From Bacteroidota bacterium (GTDB lineage Bacteria; Bacteroidota; Bacteroidia; NS11-12g; UBA955): DNA of 36,470 bases. Both the position numbers and the translations under genes were made by a program. Shown one piece after another: positions 22,861 to 28,020 of the stretch (position 1 is the stretch's first letter; every line of letters begins with the position of its first letter). The stretch lies in assembly GCA_013205405.1 (NCBI GenBank), contig JABMMZ010000101.1, positions 1-36,470 of the forward strand. Direction: 5' to 3'. The notes beneath the pieces were generated by a model, which was not told the DNA's origin, searched no databases, and was given only the letters and a program-made list of their open reading frames with translations.

Positions 22861-23463
22861 ATGAAAAATAATTTCATCATTGCAATTTTAGCTTTATCTT
22901 GCTTTATAAAGCTTACAGCTCAAGTAAATCCTACTCCACCGCCATTTCCTCCAAGAATGCCTAATACAAATTCACCTGGAATGCCTATGCCAGTCGAAAA
23001 TAAACAACCTGAAATAGTTCAATTTAACGAGTTAATTTTTAATTTTGACACCATCAAACAAGGTACTCCTGCTTCTCACATATTTGAATTTAATAACGTA
23101 GGCACAAAAGATATTAACCTTGATAATGTGCAGGCAAGTTGCGGTTGCACTACTCCAAATTGGAAAGCAGGTGCTTACAAACCAGGAGAAACTTCTCAAA
23201 TAAATGCTACTTATAATGCCGCTGGCGAAGGATACTTTGAAAAAAATATTACTGTAGTAACTTCAGAAGGAACCCAAATGCTAACCATTAAAGGTGTAGT
23301 TATATCTGCTGCCACTTACGATGCTTGGAAAATAGGTAAAGATATAAGAGACGCTGCCAAAGCAAAAGCTGAAGCATTTGCCAAAATGACACCTAAACAG
23401 AAAAAAGGGTTCCTTAAAGCTGAACAAAAAGCTAAAAAAGCAGCCCTAAAAACAAAAAAATAA
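22861..23463 (+). CDS. DUF1573 protein with Pro-rich linker and basic tail
   Basis: This 200-residue protein has a signal peptide (MKNNFIIAILALSCFIKLTAQ), then a proline-rich spacer (NPTPPPFPPRMPNTN...GMPMP), then an Ig-like DUF1573 domain: NFDTIKQGTPASHIFEFNNVGTKDINL, the signature SCGCTTPNW and YKPGETSQINATYNAAGEG. The last 35 residues are rich in Lys and Ala (AKAKAEAFAKMTPKQKKGF...), probably a basic helical tail. DUF1573 modules are small beta-sandwiches related to ASH/HYDIN-type domains; the conserved Cys pair suggests metal binding or a disulphide. It starts the four-gene array; 22 bases separate it from the next gene. Confidence 0.9.
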   Translation: MKNNFIIAILALSCFIKLTAQVNPTPPPFPPRMPNTNSPGMPMPVENKQPEIVQFNELIFNFDTIKQGTPASHIFEFNNVGTKDINLDNVQASCGCTTPNWKAGAYKPGETSQINATYNAAGEGYFEKNITVVTSEGTQMLTIKGVVISAATYDAWKIGKDIRDAAKAKAEAFAKMTPKQKKGFLKAEQKAKKAALKTKK

Positions 23464-23485
23464 TTTACCATTAAATTTTTATAAT

Positions 23486-23995
23486 ATGAAAAAAATATCC
23501 ATTTTAGCCCTTTCAGCAATACTATTAGTAAGTATGACTGCTATTAAACCTAAGCCTAAAAAAACTGCTCCTAAAAAAGCAGCTTCTACTACCGCTGCTA
23601 AACCTGCAGTAGTACTTTCTGACAAAGCATTTGATTTCAAATTCGATAAAACAACCCACGATTTTGGGACTATTACTGAAGGTTCTCAAGTAAAAACAAC
23701 TTTTATTTTAACAAATACTGGTAAAGAGCCAATTGTAGTTACTAATCATGAAGTTGGGTGTGGTTGTACCACTCCAGAATACACCAAAGAGCCTATCATG
23801 CCAGGCAAAAGCACACCAATTGTTGTAGGATTTAATTCTGCTGGTAAAAGTGGTGCTCAAGACAAAGACGTTAAGTTAAATTTTGCTAATGGAGAGAAAA
23901 CATCTGTTAATTTCAAATGTTTTGTTGGTGAAAAAGCAAAAGTTGATCCTTTGCCACAAGGTGGATCTGTTAATTTAAAACCAAAAAAATATTAA
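23486..23995 (+). CDS. DUF1573 protein with Lys/Ala-rich N-terminal spacer
   Basis: This 169-residue protein has a signal sequence (MKKISILALSAILLVSMTA), a Lys/Ala/Pro-rich spacer (KPKPKKTAPKKAAS...), and one DUF1573 domain. The domain reads THDFGTITEGSQVKTTFILT, CGCTTPEY with the family cysteine pair, MPGKSTPIVVGFNSAGKSG and a FCGE-like VNFKCFVGEK end. The C-terminal tail holds SVNLKPKKY. It likely folds into an exported Ig-like domain. It ends at a strong terminator, so the first two paralogues form one transcript. Confidence 0.9.
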   Translation: MKKISILALSAILLVSMTAIKPKPKKTAPKKAASTTAAKPAVVLSDKAFDFKFDKTTHDFGTITEGSQVKTTFILTNTGKEPIVVTNHEVGCGCTTPEYTKEPIMPGKSTPIVVGFNSAGKSGAQDKDVKLNFANGEKTSVNFKCFVGEKAKVDPLPQGGSVNLKPKKY

Positions 23996-23997
23996 AC

Positions 23998-24033
23998 AAG
24001 CATTACTCAACATTCAGTAATGCTTATTTTTTT
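23998..24033 (+). terminator. Rho-independent terminator after second DUF1573 gene
   Basis: AAGCATTACT (23998-24007) and AGTAATGCTT (24016-24025) form a perfect 10-bp stem with an 8-base loop, followed by ATTTTTTT. It starts two bases after the stop codon. Confidence 0.92.
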
Positions 24034-24053
24034 ATCCCTAAATATTACATCTG

Positions 24054-24440
24054 ATGAAATTAAAATCAATTCTTGCACTAATTACAATATTGATTGTAAA
24101 TGTAAACTTTACTTCAAAAATAGCTGACACCTCGTCTTTGATTGTTTGGAGTAAAATTTCGCACAATTTTGGAGATATCAAACAAGGTCAAGTGATGGAA
24201 ACTGAATTTACCTTTCAAAATTTAAGTAAAGATACCTTTATTTTGGAAAATGTGCAAGGTTCATGTGGATGCTTAGCTTCATCGTGGCCTAAGCAACCCA
24301 TACTACCAAATGAAAAAGGAAGTATTATTGTAAAATTTGATTCTCAAGGAAAATCAGGCAATCATTTAAAAAGCTTTTCTGTTTTTACCAACCTAGGGGC
24401 ATATTACTTAGAAATAAAAGCAAATATTATAAAAAATTAA
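24054..24440 (+). CDS. DUF1573 protein, single-domain
   Basis: This 128-residue protein is a signal sequence (MKLKSILALITILIVNVNFTS) followed directly by one DUF1573 domain. It reads SKISHNFGDIKQGQVMETEF, TFQNLSKDTFILENVQGSCG, CLASSWPKQPILPNEKGSII and VKFDSQGKSGNHLKSFSVFT. The family SCGCT motif is SCGCL here, so the cysteine pair is kept but the Thr is replaced. It lacks the linker and tail of its neighbours. It lies after a terminator; no clear promoter was seen in 24034-24053. Confidence 0.88.
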   Translation: MKLKSILALITILIVNVNFTSKIADTSSLIVWSKISHNFGDIKQGQVMETEFTFQNLSKDTFILENVQGSCGCLASSWPKQPILPNEKGSIIVKFDSQGKSGNHLKSFSVFTNLGAYYLEIKANIIKN

Positions 24441-24501
24441 GGACAAAGAATAAAATTGTAAATTTCGGCACAGAATTTGAAATAACTAAATAAAAAATAT
24501 T

Positions 24502-24924
24502 ATGATATCCTACCTTACATACCTATTAGTATTAGTTGCATCTCCATCATCAGTTGTATACAATGATCCACCAGAAGAACCAAAAACAATTGAATGGAAA
24601 AAAGAAACCCATGATTTCGGAAATATTGCCGAAGGCACAAAAGCTAAATATACTTTTACTTTTACCAATAAAGGCACCACACCTGCTGCTATTACAGGCG
24701 CTTCTGCTAGTTGTGGATGCACAGTTCCTTCTTACAGCAAAGAACCCGTAGCTCCTGGTGCAGATGGAAGCGTTACTGCTATTTTTGATTCTAATGGAAA
24801 ATTGGGCAATCAAACTAAAACTATAACAGTAGTAACTACCGCTGGCACTTATTACTTAACTATTAAATGCATTGTAACGAAGGTTGCTGAAAAACCAAAA
24901 TCCCCAATTATTCTTAATAATTAA
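24502..24924 (+). CDS. DUF1573 protein, single-domain
   Basis: This 140-residue protein has a short hydrophobic start (MISYLTYLLVLVASPSSVVY) and one DUF1573 domain: ETHDFGNIAEGTKAKYTFTF, TNKGTTPAAITGASASCGCT, VPSYSKEPVAPGADGSVTAI and FDSNGKLGNQTKTITVVTTA. It matches paralogue two in its opening HDFG.I.EGT...TF and paralogue three in its FDSxGKxGN loop, so all four appear to derive from duplications. The start is unusual in lacking basic residues, but no closer ATG is present. It ends 21 bases before a terminator. Confidence 0.88.
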   Translation: MISYLTYLLVLVASPSSVVYNDPPEEPKTIEWKKETHDFGNIAEGTKAKYTFTFTNKGTTPAAITGASASCGCTVPSYSKEPVAPGADGSVTAIFDSNGKLGNQTKTITVVTTAGTYYLTIKCIVTKVAEKPKSPIILNN

Positions 24925-24945
24925 TAATTTTATTATACTTAATTG

Positions 24946-24982
24946 AAAGTCCTGCAGAATATTCTTTTGTAGGACTTTTTTA
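24946..24982 (+). terminator. Rho-independent terminator after fourth DUF1573 gene
   Basis: AAAGTCCT (24946-24953) and AGGACTTT (24971-24978) form an 8-bp stem, with a T-run overlapping and following the right arm. It separates the array from the reductase gene. Confidence 0.8.
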
Positions 24983-25015: not shown

Positions 25016-25723
25016 TTGCACAAATTAGAATTTTATACCGTAAAAATAAGTGATATTATAATTGAAACACCAATTATAAAGCGTTTCTTTTTAACATTTG
25101 ATTCTCCAATAATTTTTCAGGCGGGGCAATTTATTATTTTAAAATTTGAAGGGCTCAAACACCAATTTGACACTAGAAGTTACTCAATAGCTGATTTTAC
25201 TTGTTCTAATATTTTAGAAATATGTATAAGCCTTAAAGATGAAGGCGCAGCTACACCCATTTTATTTGAAAAAAAAATAGGTGAAGAATTATGCTCTAGC
25301 CTTCCTCAAGGCAGATTTGTAATAACGGAGGAGGCAGTGTTGAAGCCATTGTTTTTTATTTGCACTGGAACAGGTGTAGCACCCTTTCGAAGTATGATAA
25401 AAGAATTATTATTGTACAAATTCTTTACAAAATCTATTAATTTATACTTTGGTTGTAGAACAAGAGAAGATATTCTGTACTTTGAAGAATTTAAATTACT
25501 GATGAAAACCTATCCCAATTTTAAATATTTCCCTATTTTAAGTAGAGAAAAATGGGAAGGCGAAACAGGCTATGTACATCCATATTATTTGAAAGAATTG
25601 GAAAACAAACCAGATGCGTTATTTTATTTGTGTGGTTGGACCACTATGCTGAAAGAAACACGTGATAATTTAAAAGCAATAGGCTATGAGCGCAAAGATA
25701 TAAAAGTAGAATTTTACGATTAA
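25016..25723 (+). CDS. FNR-type FAD/NAD(P)H oxidoreductase
   Basis: This 235-residue protein is of the ferredoxin-NADP reductase superfamily. The N-terminal beta-barrel carries the FAD motif DTRSYSIAD (RxYS). The C-terminal Rossmann-like part holds GTGVAPFRSMIKELL (nucleotide-binding), FGCRTREDILYFEEF and LCGWTTMLKETRDNL (NAD(P) ribose and end motif), finishing VEFYD. No iron-sulphur or flavodoxin domain is attached, so it must pass electrons to a separate partner. No ATG exists upstream of the conserved part; TTG 25016 is the only near candidate. The radical SAM gene begins ten bases after its stop, so co-transcription is likely and it may supply its reducing power (inference). Confidence 0.88.
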   Translation: MHKLEFYTVKISDIIIETPIIKRFFLTFDSPIIFQAGQFIILKFEGLKHQFDTRSYSIADFTCSNILEICISLKDEGAATPILFEKKIGEELCSSLPQGRFVITEEAVLKPLFFICTGTGVAPFRSMIKELLLYKFFTKSINLYFGCRTREDILYFEEFKLLMKTYPNFKYFPILSREKWEGETGYVHPYYLKELENKPDALFYLCGWTTMLKETRDNLKAIGYERKDIKVEFYD

Positions 25724-25733
25724 AAAATTTATT

Positions 25734-26759
25734 TTGAATAAAAACAAAGCCGATATTCTGAATCTATTAAGCAAAAATTTTACATTACTAAGATCCTTTA
25801 ATGCCATAAAAGTGATTAGTAGTTATTATGTATCTAAAATTTTAAAAAAATCAATACAATGGGGCAAGCCTATTTCTATTTCGATAGAACCTACTACTTC
25901 ATGTAATTTGCGGTGCCCACAATGTCCAAGTGGCTTAAGAAGCTTTAGCCGACCTACCGGCATGCTAGACCTCAATATTTTTGAAACTGCTGTGAATGAG
26001 CTCCATAAAACTACAGGATATATCACTTTGTATTTTCAAGGAGAGCCTTATTTAAATACTCGATTTTTAGAAATGGTAGGCTATGCTAATACACACAAAA
26101 TATATACTGCAACTAGTACTAATGCCCATTATTTAACCAAAGAAAATGCAGAGAAAACAGTAAAAAGTGGGTTGGATAGATTAATTATTTCAATAGACGG
26201 AACCTCTCAAGAAACTTATGGAAAATACCGCATTGGAGGAACCTTAGAAAAGGTGTTAGAAGGCACAAAAAATTTAATAGAAGCTAAGAAAAACGCTAAA
26301 TCAAAAACGCCTCATATTATTTGGCAGTTTATCGTTTTTGGGCATAATGAACATCAATTAACGGATGTAAAAGTATTAGCTAAAGAATATCAAGTGGATG
26401 AATTGGCAATAAAATCGGCTCAAATTTATGACTATGAAAGCGGCAGTAAATTAATACCAACTACGAGTAATTTCAGTAGATATGAGCAAAACAAAGATGG
26501 ATTTACAATTAAAAATAAGCTGTTAAATCACTGTTGGCGGTTATGGAATAGTTGTGTTATAACATGGGATGGCAAGGTGGTACCTTGTTGTTTTGATAAG
26601 GATGGCACATACAGATTAGGTAATTTGGCAGACAATAATTTCTCAGACATCTGGCATAGTGAAGCCTATAAAAGTTTTAGAACTCAAATTTTGAAAGGCA
26701 GGCAATACATTGAAATTTGCAAAAACTGCAGTGAAGGAACGAGTATTTGGCAAAACTAG
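25734..26759 (+). CDS. Radical SAM / SPASM domain protein
   Basis: This 341-residue protein has the radical SAM cluster motif CNLRCPQC (about residues 57-64, CxxxCxxC) after ISIEPTTS, then a TIM-barrel-like stretch with GYITLYFQGEPYLNTRF and DRLIISIDGTSQETYGKYRIGG. The C-terminus is a SPASM region with HCWRLWNSCVITWDGKVVPC, a CFDKDGTYRLGNLADNNFSD segment and IEICKNCSEGTS, holding auxiliary iron-sulphur cysteines. SPASM proteins modify peptides, sugars or proteins; the substrate is unknown and no precursor peptide was seen nearby. The start is TTG 25734; no Met precedes the conserved part. Confidence 0.88.
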   Translation: MNKNKADILNLLSKNFTLLRSFNAIKVISSYYVSKILKKSIQWGKPISISIEPTTSCNLRCPQCPSGLRSFSRPTGMLDLNIFETAVNELHKTTGYITLYFQGEPYLNTRFLEMVGYANTHKIYTATSTNAHYLTKENAEKTVKSGLDRLIISIDGTSQETYGKYRIGGTLEKVLEGTKNLIEAKKNAKSKTPHIIWQFIVFGHNEHQLTDVKVLAKEYQVDELAIKSAQIYDYESGSKLIPTTSNFSRYEQNKDGFTIKNKLLNHCWRLWNSCVITWDGKVVPCCFDKDGTYRLGNLADNNFSDIWHSEAYKSFRTQILKGRQYIEICKNCSEGTSIWQN

Positions 26760-26781
26760 TAGCATTATTCAATAAAATTAT

Positions 26782-26789
26782 TACTTTTG
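26782..26789 (+). promoter_or_regulatory. -7 promoter element for MarR gene
   Basis: TACTTTTG matches TAnnTTTG and lies five bases before the likely TTG start at 26795, so the MarR gene may be transcribed on its own with a minimal leader. Confidence 0.5.
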
Positions 26790-26794
26790 AAAGT

Positions 26795-27241
26795 TTGAAA
26801 ATAGAAGATGCTATCAAACAAAGTAAATTTATTGGTGTAGAAAAAAAGGCTATCATTAACATAATTTATACTGCCAATAAAATAGATGAAATATTTAGTA
26901 AAAATCTTCGAAAATTTGGTTTAAGCATGCAACAATATAATACATTAAGAATATTGAATGGGCGCAAATATTCTTATGCTACTTGTGGCGAAATTAAGGA
27001 TGTTATGTTGGAAAGAAGTCCAGATATAACTAGACTATGCGACAAACTATTAACTAAAAACCTCATATTCAAAACCTTTAATCCACAGAATAAAAGGAAA
27101 GTATTTTTAAGTATTTCTCCAGAAGGGATTAGTCTTTTAAAAATTATTGCGCCTAAAATGAATGAAAGTATTTTGGGGTTTTCCAATTTACACAAAGATG
27201 AACTTGAGCAATTATCCAACCTTTTAGATAAGGTAAGTTAA
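26795..27241 (+). CDS. MarR-family transcriptional regulator
   Basis: This is a winged-helix regulator of about 148 residues. From TTG 26795 it reads (M)KIEDAIKQSKFIGVEKKAII, the usual start of Bacteroidota MarR proteins, then FGLSMQQYNTLRILNGRK (helix and lead-in), CGEIKDVMLERSPDITRLCDKLLTKNLI (recognition helix) and KRKVFLSISPEGISLLKII (wing). A longer frame from TTG 26747 overlaps the radical SAM gene by 13 bases; it is less likely because the family start matches 26795 and a promoter element sits in between. It may regulate its upstream neighbours or itself; its ligand is unknown. Confidence 0.85.
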   Translation: MKIEDAIKQSKFIGVEKKAIINIIYTANKIDEIFSKNLRKFGLSMQQYNTLRILNGRKYSYATCGEIKDVMLERSPDITRLCDKLLTKNLIFKTFNPQNKRKVFLSISPEGISLLKIIAPKMNESILGFSNLHKDELEQLSNLLDKVS

Positions 27242-27256: not shown

Positions 27257-27300
27257 GAACGATAATTGTTTATTTGCAATTACAATATTACAAGAAAAAA

Positions 27301-28020
27301 ATGAAAAAAATAATTTTAATGGCTATTGTTTGTGTTAACATAGTAGCGTGCGATGTATTAAATGAAGCAGGAAAGGTAGCTTCTAATGTTTTAGCTGTCC
27401 CTACTTCTAGCGAGGCTGCTGGTGGCTTAAAAGATGCTTTAAGCCAAGGATTTGGTAAAGGTGTAGATGCTTTATCTTTAAAAGGGGCTTTTAGTAGCAA
27501 TTCTTTAATTAAAATTTTATTGCCATCAGATGCACAAACCATTGCCAATAAATTAACTGACTTAGGCTTTGGAGGTGAGGTAGATAAAGTAATTTCTAAA
27601 TTAAATGAAGGTGCAGAAAATGCAGTATCTACTGCAAAACCAATATTCTTAAGCGCAGTTAAAAACATGAGTTTTTCTGATGCTATGGGTATATTAACAG
27701 GTGGCAAGGGCTCTGCTACAAACTATTTAAAACAAACAACTACAACTGCTTTAACAGCTTCATTTAGACCCGAAATTCAAAAAGCATTAGACCAAGTAGG
27801 CGTTACTAAATTATGGACGCCATTGGTTAATCAATACAATTCAATTCCTTTTATAACTAAACTTAATCCAGATTTAAATGCACATGTTACTGAAAAAGCA
27901 TTAGCTGCTTTATTCAGTAAAGTAGAAACAGAAGAAAATGCTATTAGAGATAATCCTATAAACAGAGCAACAGACTTAATGAAAAAAGCATTTGCCTATG
28001 CAGATACTCAAAAGAAATAA
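27301..28020 (+). CDS. DUF4197 lipoprotein
   Basis: From ATG 27301 this 239-residue protein starts with a lipoprotein signal (MKKIILMAIVCVNIVAC, Cys17 in the lipobox) and then matches DUF4197: LKDALSQGFGKGVDALS, ...IKILLPSDAQTIANKLTDLGFGGEVDKVISKLN, AENAVSTAKPIFLSAVKNMS, GILTGGKGSATNYLKQTTTTAL, and the C-terminal VTEKALAALFSKVETEENAIRDN. The family is periplasmic or membrane-anchored and of unknown function. A frame from 27274 would add nine residues, but these break the signal. It has a promoter and a terminator of its own. Confidence 0.9.
   Translation: MKKIILMAIVCVNIVACDVLNEAGKVASNVLAVPTSSEAAGGLKDALSQGFGKGVDALSLKGAFSSNSLIKILLPSDAQTIANKLTDLGFGGEVDKVISKLNEGAENAVSTAKPIFLSAVKNMSFSDAMGILTGGKGSATNYLKQTTTTALTASFRPEIQKALDQVGVTKLWTPLVNQYNSIPFITKLNPDLNAHVTEKALAALFSKVETEENAIRDNPINRATDLMKKAFAYADTQKK

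Follow-up and report, generated by a model that had tools for sequence, protein, structure and literature searches.

Judged by gene order, the adjacent genes for an FNR-type NAD(P)H:FAD reductase (FNR) and a radical SAM enzyme (rSAM) form a real and conserved unit of two genes, both encoding known kinds of protein, in the family of the bacterium studied here. The unit was met in the window, the whole 36,470-nucleotide stretch of Bacteroidota DNA that was analysed. The explanation that we consider best, and to which we give an even chance, is a two-gene unit in which a non-exclusive FNR would feed rSAM with electrons for radical chemistry on a small molecule.

Table 1. Positions in the window of the FNR-rSAM pair and of the features bordering it.
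Feature	Position	Strand	Remarks
Terminator-like hairpin with T-tail	24945..24979	+	15-pair stem, then T-rich tail
FNR-type NAD(P)H:FAD reductase (FNR)	25016..25723	+	235 aa; FAD_binding_6 and NAD_binding_1 (Pfam); without 2Fe-2S domain
Radical SAM enzyme (rSAM), SPASM/Twitch C-terminus	25734..26759	+	341 aa; Pfam
TAnnTTTG, candidate promoter-like element	26782..26789	+	lies in sequence also found upstream of MarR in G009 and G014
MarR-family regulator	26795..27241	+	148 aa with re-called start; first called 26747-27241
DUF4197 protein	27274..28020	+	Pfam; conserved MarR neighbour in the genus

The initial annotation had described an FNR-type reductase without an iron-sulphur domain ten bases ahead of a SPASM protein, and the open reading frames, their domains and the 10-nt gap between them confirm this. 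Both genes start at TTG in the window, and these starts are supported by relatives, in which the aligned codon is ATG, GTG or TTG. The hairpin located between the last DUF1573 gene and FNR sets the unit apart from the genes upstream, and a T-run after GTAAGG is found at the same position upstream of FNR in several relatives. We infer co-transcription, i.e. FNR and rSAM are probably produced together as a two-gene transcription unit. Further upstream, positions 22861-24924 are occupied by four tandem genes; Pfam assigns the last two to DUF1573, and BLAST groups the first two with these. Tandem DUF1573-like genes precede FNR in several relatives as well.

Among 70 genomes of the window's family, counted from draft assemblies several of which are incomplete, rSAM was present in 28 and FNR in 57 (both genes 27, FNR only 30, rSAM only 1, neither 12). 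FNR was co-present in 27 of the 28 rSAM-holding genomes, and in the one remaining genome (G022) a contig end close to rSAM cuts off its upstream side. Of the 27 genomes with both genes, 25 have FNR directly upstream of rSAM on the same strand; the exceptions have either a DUF6263 gene between the two (G024) or a divergent gene upstream of rSAM and FNR on another contig (G354). Adjacency extends over the genera g1, g2, g3, g8 and g10, with one gene in between in g9. Wherever the junction could be read, it was no longer than 12 nt or consisted of a stop/start overlap: most members of the window's genus (g1) have a spacing of 1-12 nt, and overlaps (TAATG, TGATG, ATGA) occur in g2, g3, g8 and g10. 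The flanks of the pair vary, being DUF1573 or Sua5 (window's genus), GAF-MiaE (g10) or CrcB (g8/g9) on the upstream side and Rho (g8/g9), a CHU_C gene or others on the downstream side. As adjacency is kept in five genera despite these changing flanks, the pairing is above chance and argues for a genuine unit.

Whether the pair is conserved across genomes, a check suggested by the initial annotation, receives a divided answer: the two genes are nearly always neighbours in the window's family but not outside it. Most genomes of the sister family hold rSAM, and nearly all of these lack an FNR orthologue, the matches there being confined to portions of larger proteins, with 27-29% identity. Among 296 genomes drawn from the phylum, rSAM occurred in 36 and FNR in 17. 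Leaving out the window's own genome, both genes were present in 13, rSAM alone in 22 and FNR alone in 3, and adjacency was not seen in the genomes holding both. FNR is enriched among the rSAM genomes of this draw though unlinked (13/16), an association that is strong by Fisher test but whose p-value is not a fair probability because the genomes are related. Both genes are common in another family, f4 (rSAM in 230 and FNR in 256 of 296), and are again unlinked. Counted by genus, f4 yields 68 with both, 7 with rSAM only, 13 with FNR only and 6 with neither, so that the losses are weakly associated (odds ratio 4.5, p 0.02, uncorrected for ancestry). On this comparison of gene neighbourhoods, the FNR-rSAM pairing is local to the window's family. 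A phylum-wide shared partner of rSAM was considered and rejected, as the neighbours differ and none is common to all; in the sister family they are OmpA, DUF2007, ProRS and MBOAT. Some of its genomes (L031, L042-L045, L049) carry a small DUF2007-like ORF immediately before rSAM and after the prolyl-tRNA synthetase gene. The rSAM loci of another class (L153-L156) continue with genes for an LPG_synthase_TM protein and a family 2 glycosyltransferase, and BshC, which belongs to bacillithiol synthesis, is encoded divergently on the opposite flank.

The idea that the reductase is the dedicated donor of rSAM finds no support in these comparisons. FNR is retained in 30 of the 42 family genomes without rSAM, and in several of them (g5, g6, g11, and G017 of g2) it now adjoins Rho. 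The order in G034 is FNR-rSAM-Rho; set against the FNR-Rho genomes, rSAM looks cleanly lost (or gained) while FNR stayed. Conversely, the sister family and much of the phylum retain rSAM but lack an FNR orthologue. Since each gene is retained without the other, a strictly dedicated donor is unsupported. A shared NADPH-type reductase that also primes rSAM is plausible, as is a role of FNR as electron donor for rSAM, provided that it is not an exclusive one.

FNR carries the motifs RSYS and GTGVAP and belongs to the FNR superfamily, with PF00970 and PF00175 over cut-off and R54, Y56 and S57 (RxYS) invariant. In FNR-type enzymes, S and R residues at certain positions mark NADPH sites. At the corresponding positions of our alignment S176 is invariant and R177 is present in 43/47 sequences, and this pattern suggests an NADPH-type enzyme. 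The nearest solved relatives in profile searches are the BenC and NqrF reductases, followed by others including ferredoxin and flavodoxin reductases (flavodoxin reductase 1fdr, E 3.4e-26). With the NCBIfam ferredoxin-NADP reductase model PRK10926, FNR scores 44 bits against a cut-off of 390. Other neighbours of FNR (L098, L093, L095, L158, L159) comprise QueG, which overlaps it in G029, and MiaE, which lies upstream in g10. Two genomes of a different family have nuoABC after FNR, and MsrA is also among the neighbours of FNR. QueG, MiaE and nuoABC possibly hint at other clients of FNR.

The rSAM protein is strikingly conserved: homologues from different families are 44-77% identical to the window's protein, and 59 positions are invariant in 64 sequences. 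Its place in the radical SAM superfamily is evident from the CxxxCxxC motif (C57/C61/C64), found in 64/64 sequences, and from PF04055 over cut-off; PF13186 (SPASM) is over cut-off as well. A full SPASM motif comprises seven cysteines and holds two auxiliary clusters. Beyond the core, only five cysteines are invariant in the 64 sequences (C267, C285, C286, C329, C332), with C274 in 47/64, which does not amount to the full motif. The number of auxiliary clusters, one or two, distinguishes Twitch from full SPASM domains (PMC9012708). The Twitch domain is a shortened SPASM domain whose cysteines suffice for one 4Fe-4S cluster. The alignment to BtrN 188-257, the predicted fold and the cysteines of rSAM all correspond to the BtrN-like Twitch type, and the cysteines would fit one putative auxiliary 4Fe-4S cluster. 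The AlphaFold2 model has a mean pLDDT of 90. Its top Foldseek matches are BlsE, BtrN and DesII, and VIA-align returned a near-tie of DesII, SkfB, SuiB, BlsE, BtrN and anSME, placing sugar enzymes level with peptide maturases. No NCBIfam model cut-off was reached by rSAM; the top-scoring model, TIGR04317 for the rSAM maturase of a tungsten-cofactor oxidoreductase, was dismissed with 123 bits against a cut-off of 380.

Radical SAM enzymes require reduction of their SAM-binding cluster. In vitro, this can be achieved with NADPH, Fpr and flavodoxin, and for PapB FMN together with NADPH suffices (PMC10470005). A search for flavodoxin (PF00258) gave no match in the window's genome, which is 84% complete, and a match in only 1/59 relatives of the same order, whereas 10/14 controls were positive. 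We therefore rejected flavodoxin as the carrier. With flavodoxin missing from the order, the textbook FNR-flavodoxin route is unlikely, and FNR, if it reduces rSAM, would act via ferredoxin, via free flavin or directly.

In the explanation that we favour, FNR would move two electrons from NADPH to FAD and then hand on single electrons, and the carrier between FNR and the 4Fe-4S cluster of rSAM would most likely be ferredoxin or free flavin. The reduced SAM-binding cluster would cleave SAM and initiate radical chemistry on a small molecule, probably one that is sugar-, cyclitol- or nucleotide-like, while the single auxiliary cluster of the Twitch type might accept or shuttle an electron. FNR would also serve other clients and so persist where rSAM is lost. 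If rSAM were a BtrN-like dehydrogenase, to speculate from BtrN, the electron taken from the substrate might go back to the cluster, so that the main task of the reductase would be to prime the enzyme. The gene identities, the operon-like pairing, its distribution, the lack of flavodoxin, the conserved cysteines and the predicted fold are observed here, whereas the electron transfer from FNR to rSAM, the NADPH preference, the carrier and the substrate class in this scheme are what we infer.

A credible alternative, though one that we rate clearly below even, is that FNR does housekeeping work as the reductase of other enzymes, e.g. oxygenases or enzymes of tRNA modification like MiaE and QueG, and shares a transcript with rSAM without reducing it. 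Its retention in so many family genomes without rSAM (30/42) accords with this, as do its place beside Rho where rSAM is missing (g2, g5, g6, g11) and its neighbours elsewhere (MiaE in g10, overlapping QueG in G029, MsrA, and nuoABC in another family). However, a housekeeping role leaves unexplained both the tie to rSAM across a gap of at most 12 nt, which five genera keep although their flanks differ, and the co-presence in 27/28 genomes, and having several clients is compatible with rSAM being one of them. The chemistry of rSAM admits a further alternative, a peptide (RiPP) maturase whose precursor peptide is unlinked. Such an enzyme would account for the SPASM-type C-terminus and for SuiB, SkfB and anSME scoring structurally as high as the sugar enzymes. 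We nevertheless regard it as improbable. A precursor-like small ORF conserved beside rSAM was not found in any clade examined, which bears out the earlier statement that no precursor peptide is nearby, and the 71-aa gene adjoining rSAM in some sister-family genomes is DUF2007-like. Moreover, the cysteines of rSAM suffice for one auxiliary cluster only, and the protein is mostly single-copy and well conserved between families (44-65% identity), which typical RiPP maturases are not. Because the Twitch anatomy is closest to that of BtrN and no precursor peptide is linked, we favour a small-molecule substrate, which appears likelier than a peptide.

A three-gene unit, in which MarR senses a product or stress and controls reductase and rSAM, is the least probable reading, and we consider it very unlikely. 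The MarR gene does physically adjoin the pair in the window, and the ORF that was reported to follow the pair is present as described, but its start had to be re-called and its Pfam matches are just below the family cut-offs. By comparison with relatives, translation starts at the TTG at 26795, 35 nt past the rSAM stop, and not at the overlapping 26747. In all other genomes of the genus with the locus read (15/15), DUF4197 comes after the MarR orthologue, and the two stand away from rSAM, which is followed there by genes other than MarR. Both the rSAM tree and the FNR tree place the window's genome as a nested branch within the genus; with MarR-DUF4197 elsewhere in the relatives, the order FNR-rSAM-MarR-DUF4197 is thus most likely derived. 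The sequence before MarR in the window, moreover, resembles that before MarR of the relatives G009 and G014, where the gene stands elsewhere. It includes the TAnnTTTG element, which we take to be promoter-like from the Bacteroidota promoter consensus. The arrangement is best read as a local rearrangement that moved the MarR-DUF4197 block here. We accordingly rejected MarR as a member of the unit for this genus, where the proposal that it is the sensor is left unsupported and MarR is, judged by these gene orders, an incidental neighbour of FNR-rSAM. In favour of a three-gene unit, a MarR whose identity to that of the window is 30-37% is encoded downstream of rSAM, at a distance of up to about 1.2 kb, in 15/28 loci of family f4 (L129, L131, L134, L136, L146, L183-L185, L190-L194, L198, L199); FNR, however, is not in that neighbourhood. 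A GHL10 glycosyl-hydrolase-like gene usually comes next after this MarR. The rSAM-MarR neighbourhood of f4 may reflect old synteny or a real link.

How the reduction of radical SAM enzymes is achieved in living cells has yet to be settled (PMC10470005). An NADPH-type reductase linked to one rSAM, in bacteria without flavodoxin, offers a natural pair for studying this in-cell reduction, and the conservation of rSAM across many Bacteroidota families without an assigned product makes its substrate one of general interest. We found no paper in the open-access literature on this rSAM family or on the FNR-rSAM gene pair. It is conceivable, though on balance doubtful, that the product of an ancient Bacteroidota rSAM is a small molecule or modification not yet recognised, and that one family has placed its physiological reductase in the operon, providing a flavodoxin-free route from NADPH to rSAM.

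Among characterized systems, BtrN, the Twitch radical SAM dehydrogenase acting on an aminocyclitol in the butirosin pathway (PDB 4m7t), is the best solved profile match of rSAM (E 1.5e-22). The likeness spans the CxxxCxxC part and the C-terminal one-cluster domain, and the structures match with Z 20.0 and an rmsd of 2.9 over 227 residues at 24% identity. Unlike BtrN, the window's rSAM is about 90 residues longer, has two extra N-terminal helices and lies outside an antibiotic cluster. BlsE (cytosylglucuronate decarboxylase) and the sugar-acting DesII, which are among the top Foldseek and VIA-align matches, act on sugar-type small molecules, but their identity to rSAM is 14-18% and no biosynthetic cluster surrounds rSAM in the window. 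On the side of the reductase, the E. coli Fpr/FldA/NADPH system, which serves to activate radical SAM enzymes, is comparable in that an FNR without an iron-sulphur domain is the NADPH entry point. In contrast to Fpr/FldA, the window's FNR is nearer to the BenC/NqrF reductase domains, has no flavodoxin and is encoded by a gene linked to one rSAM.
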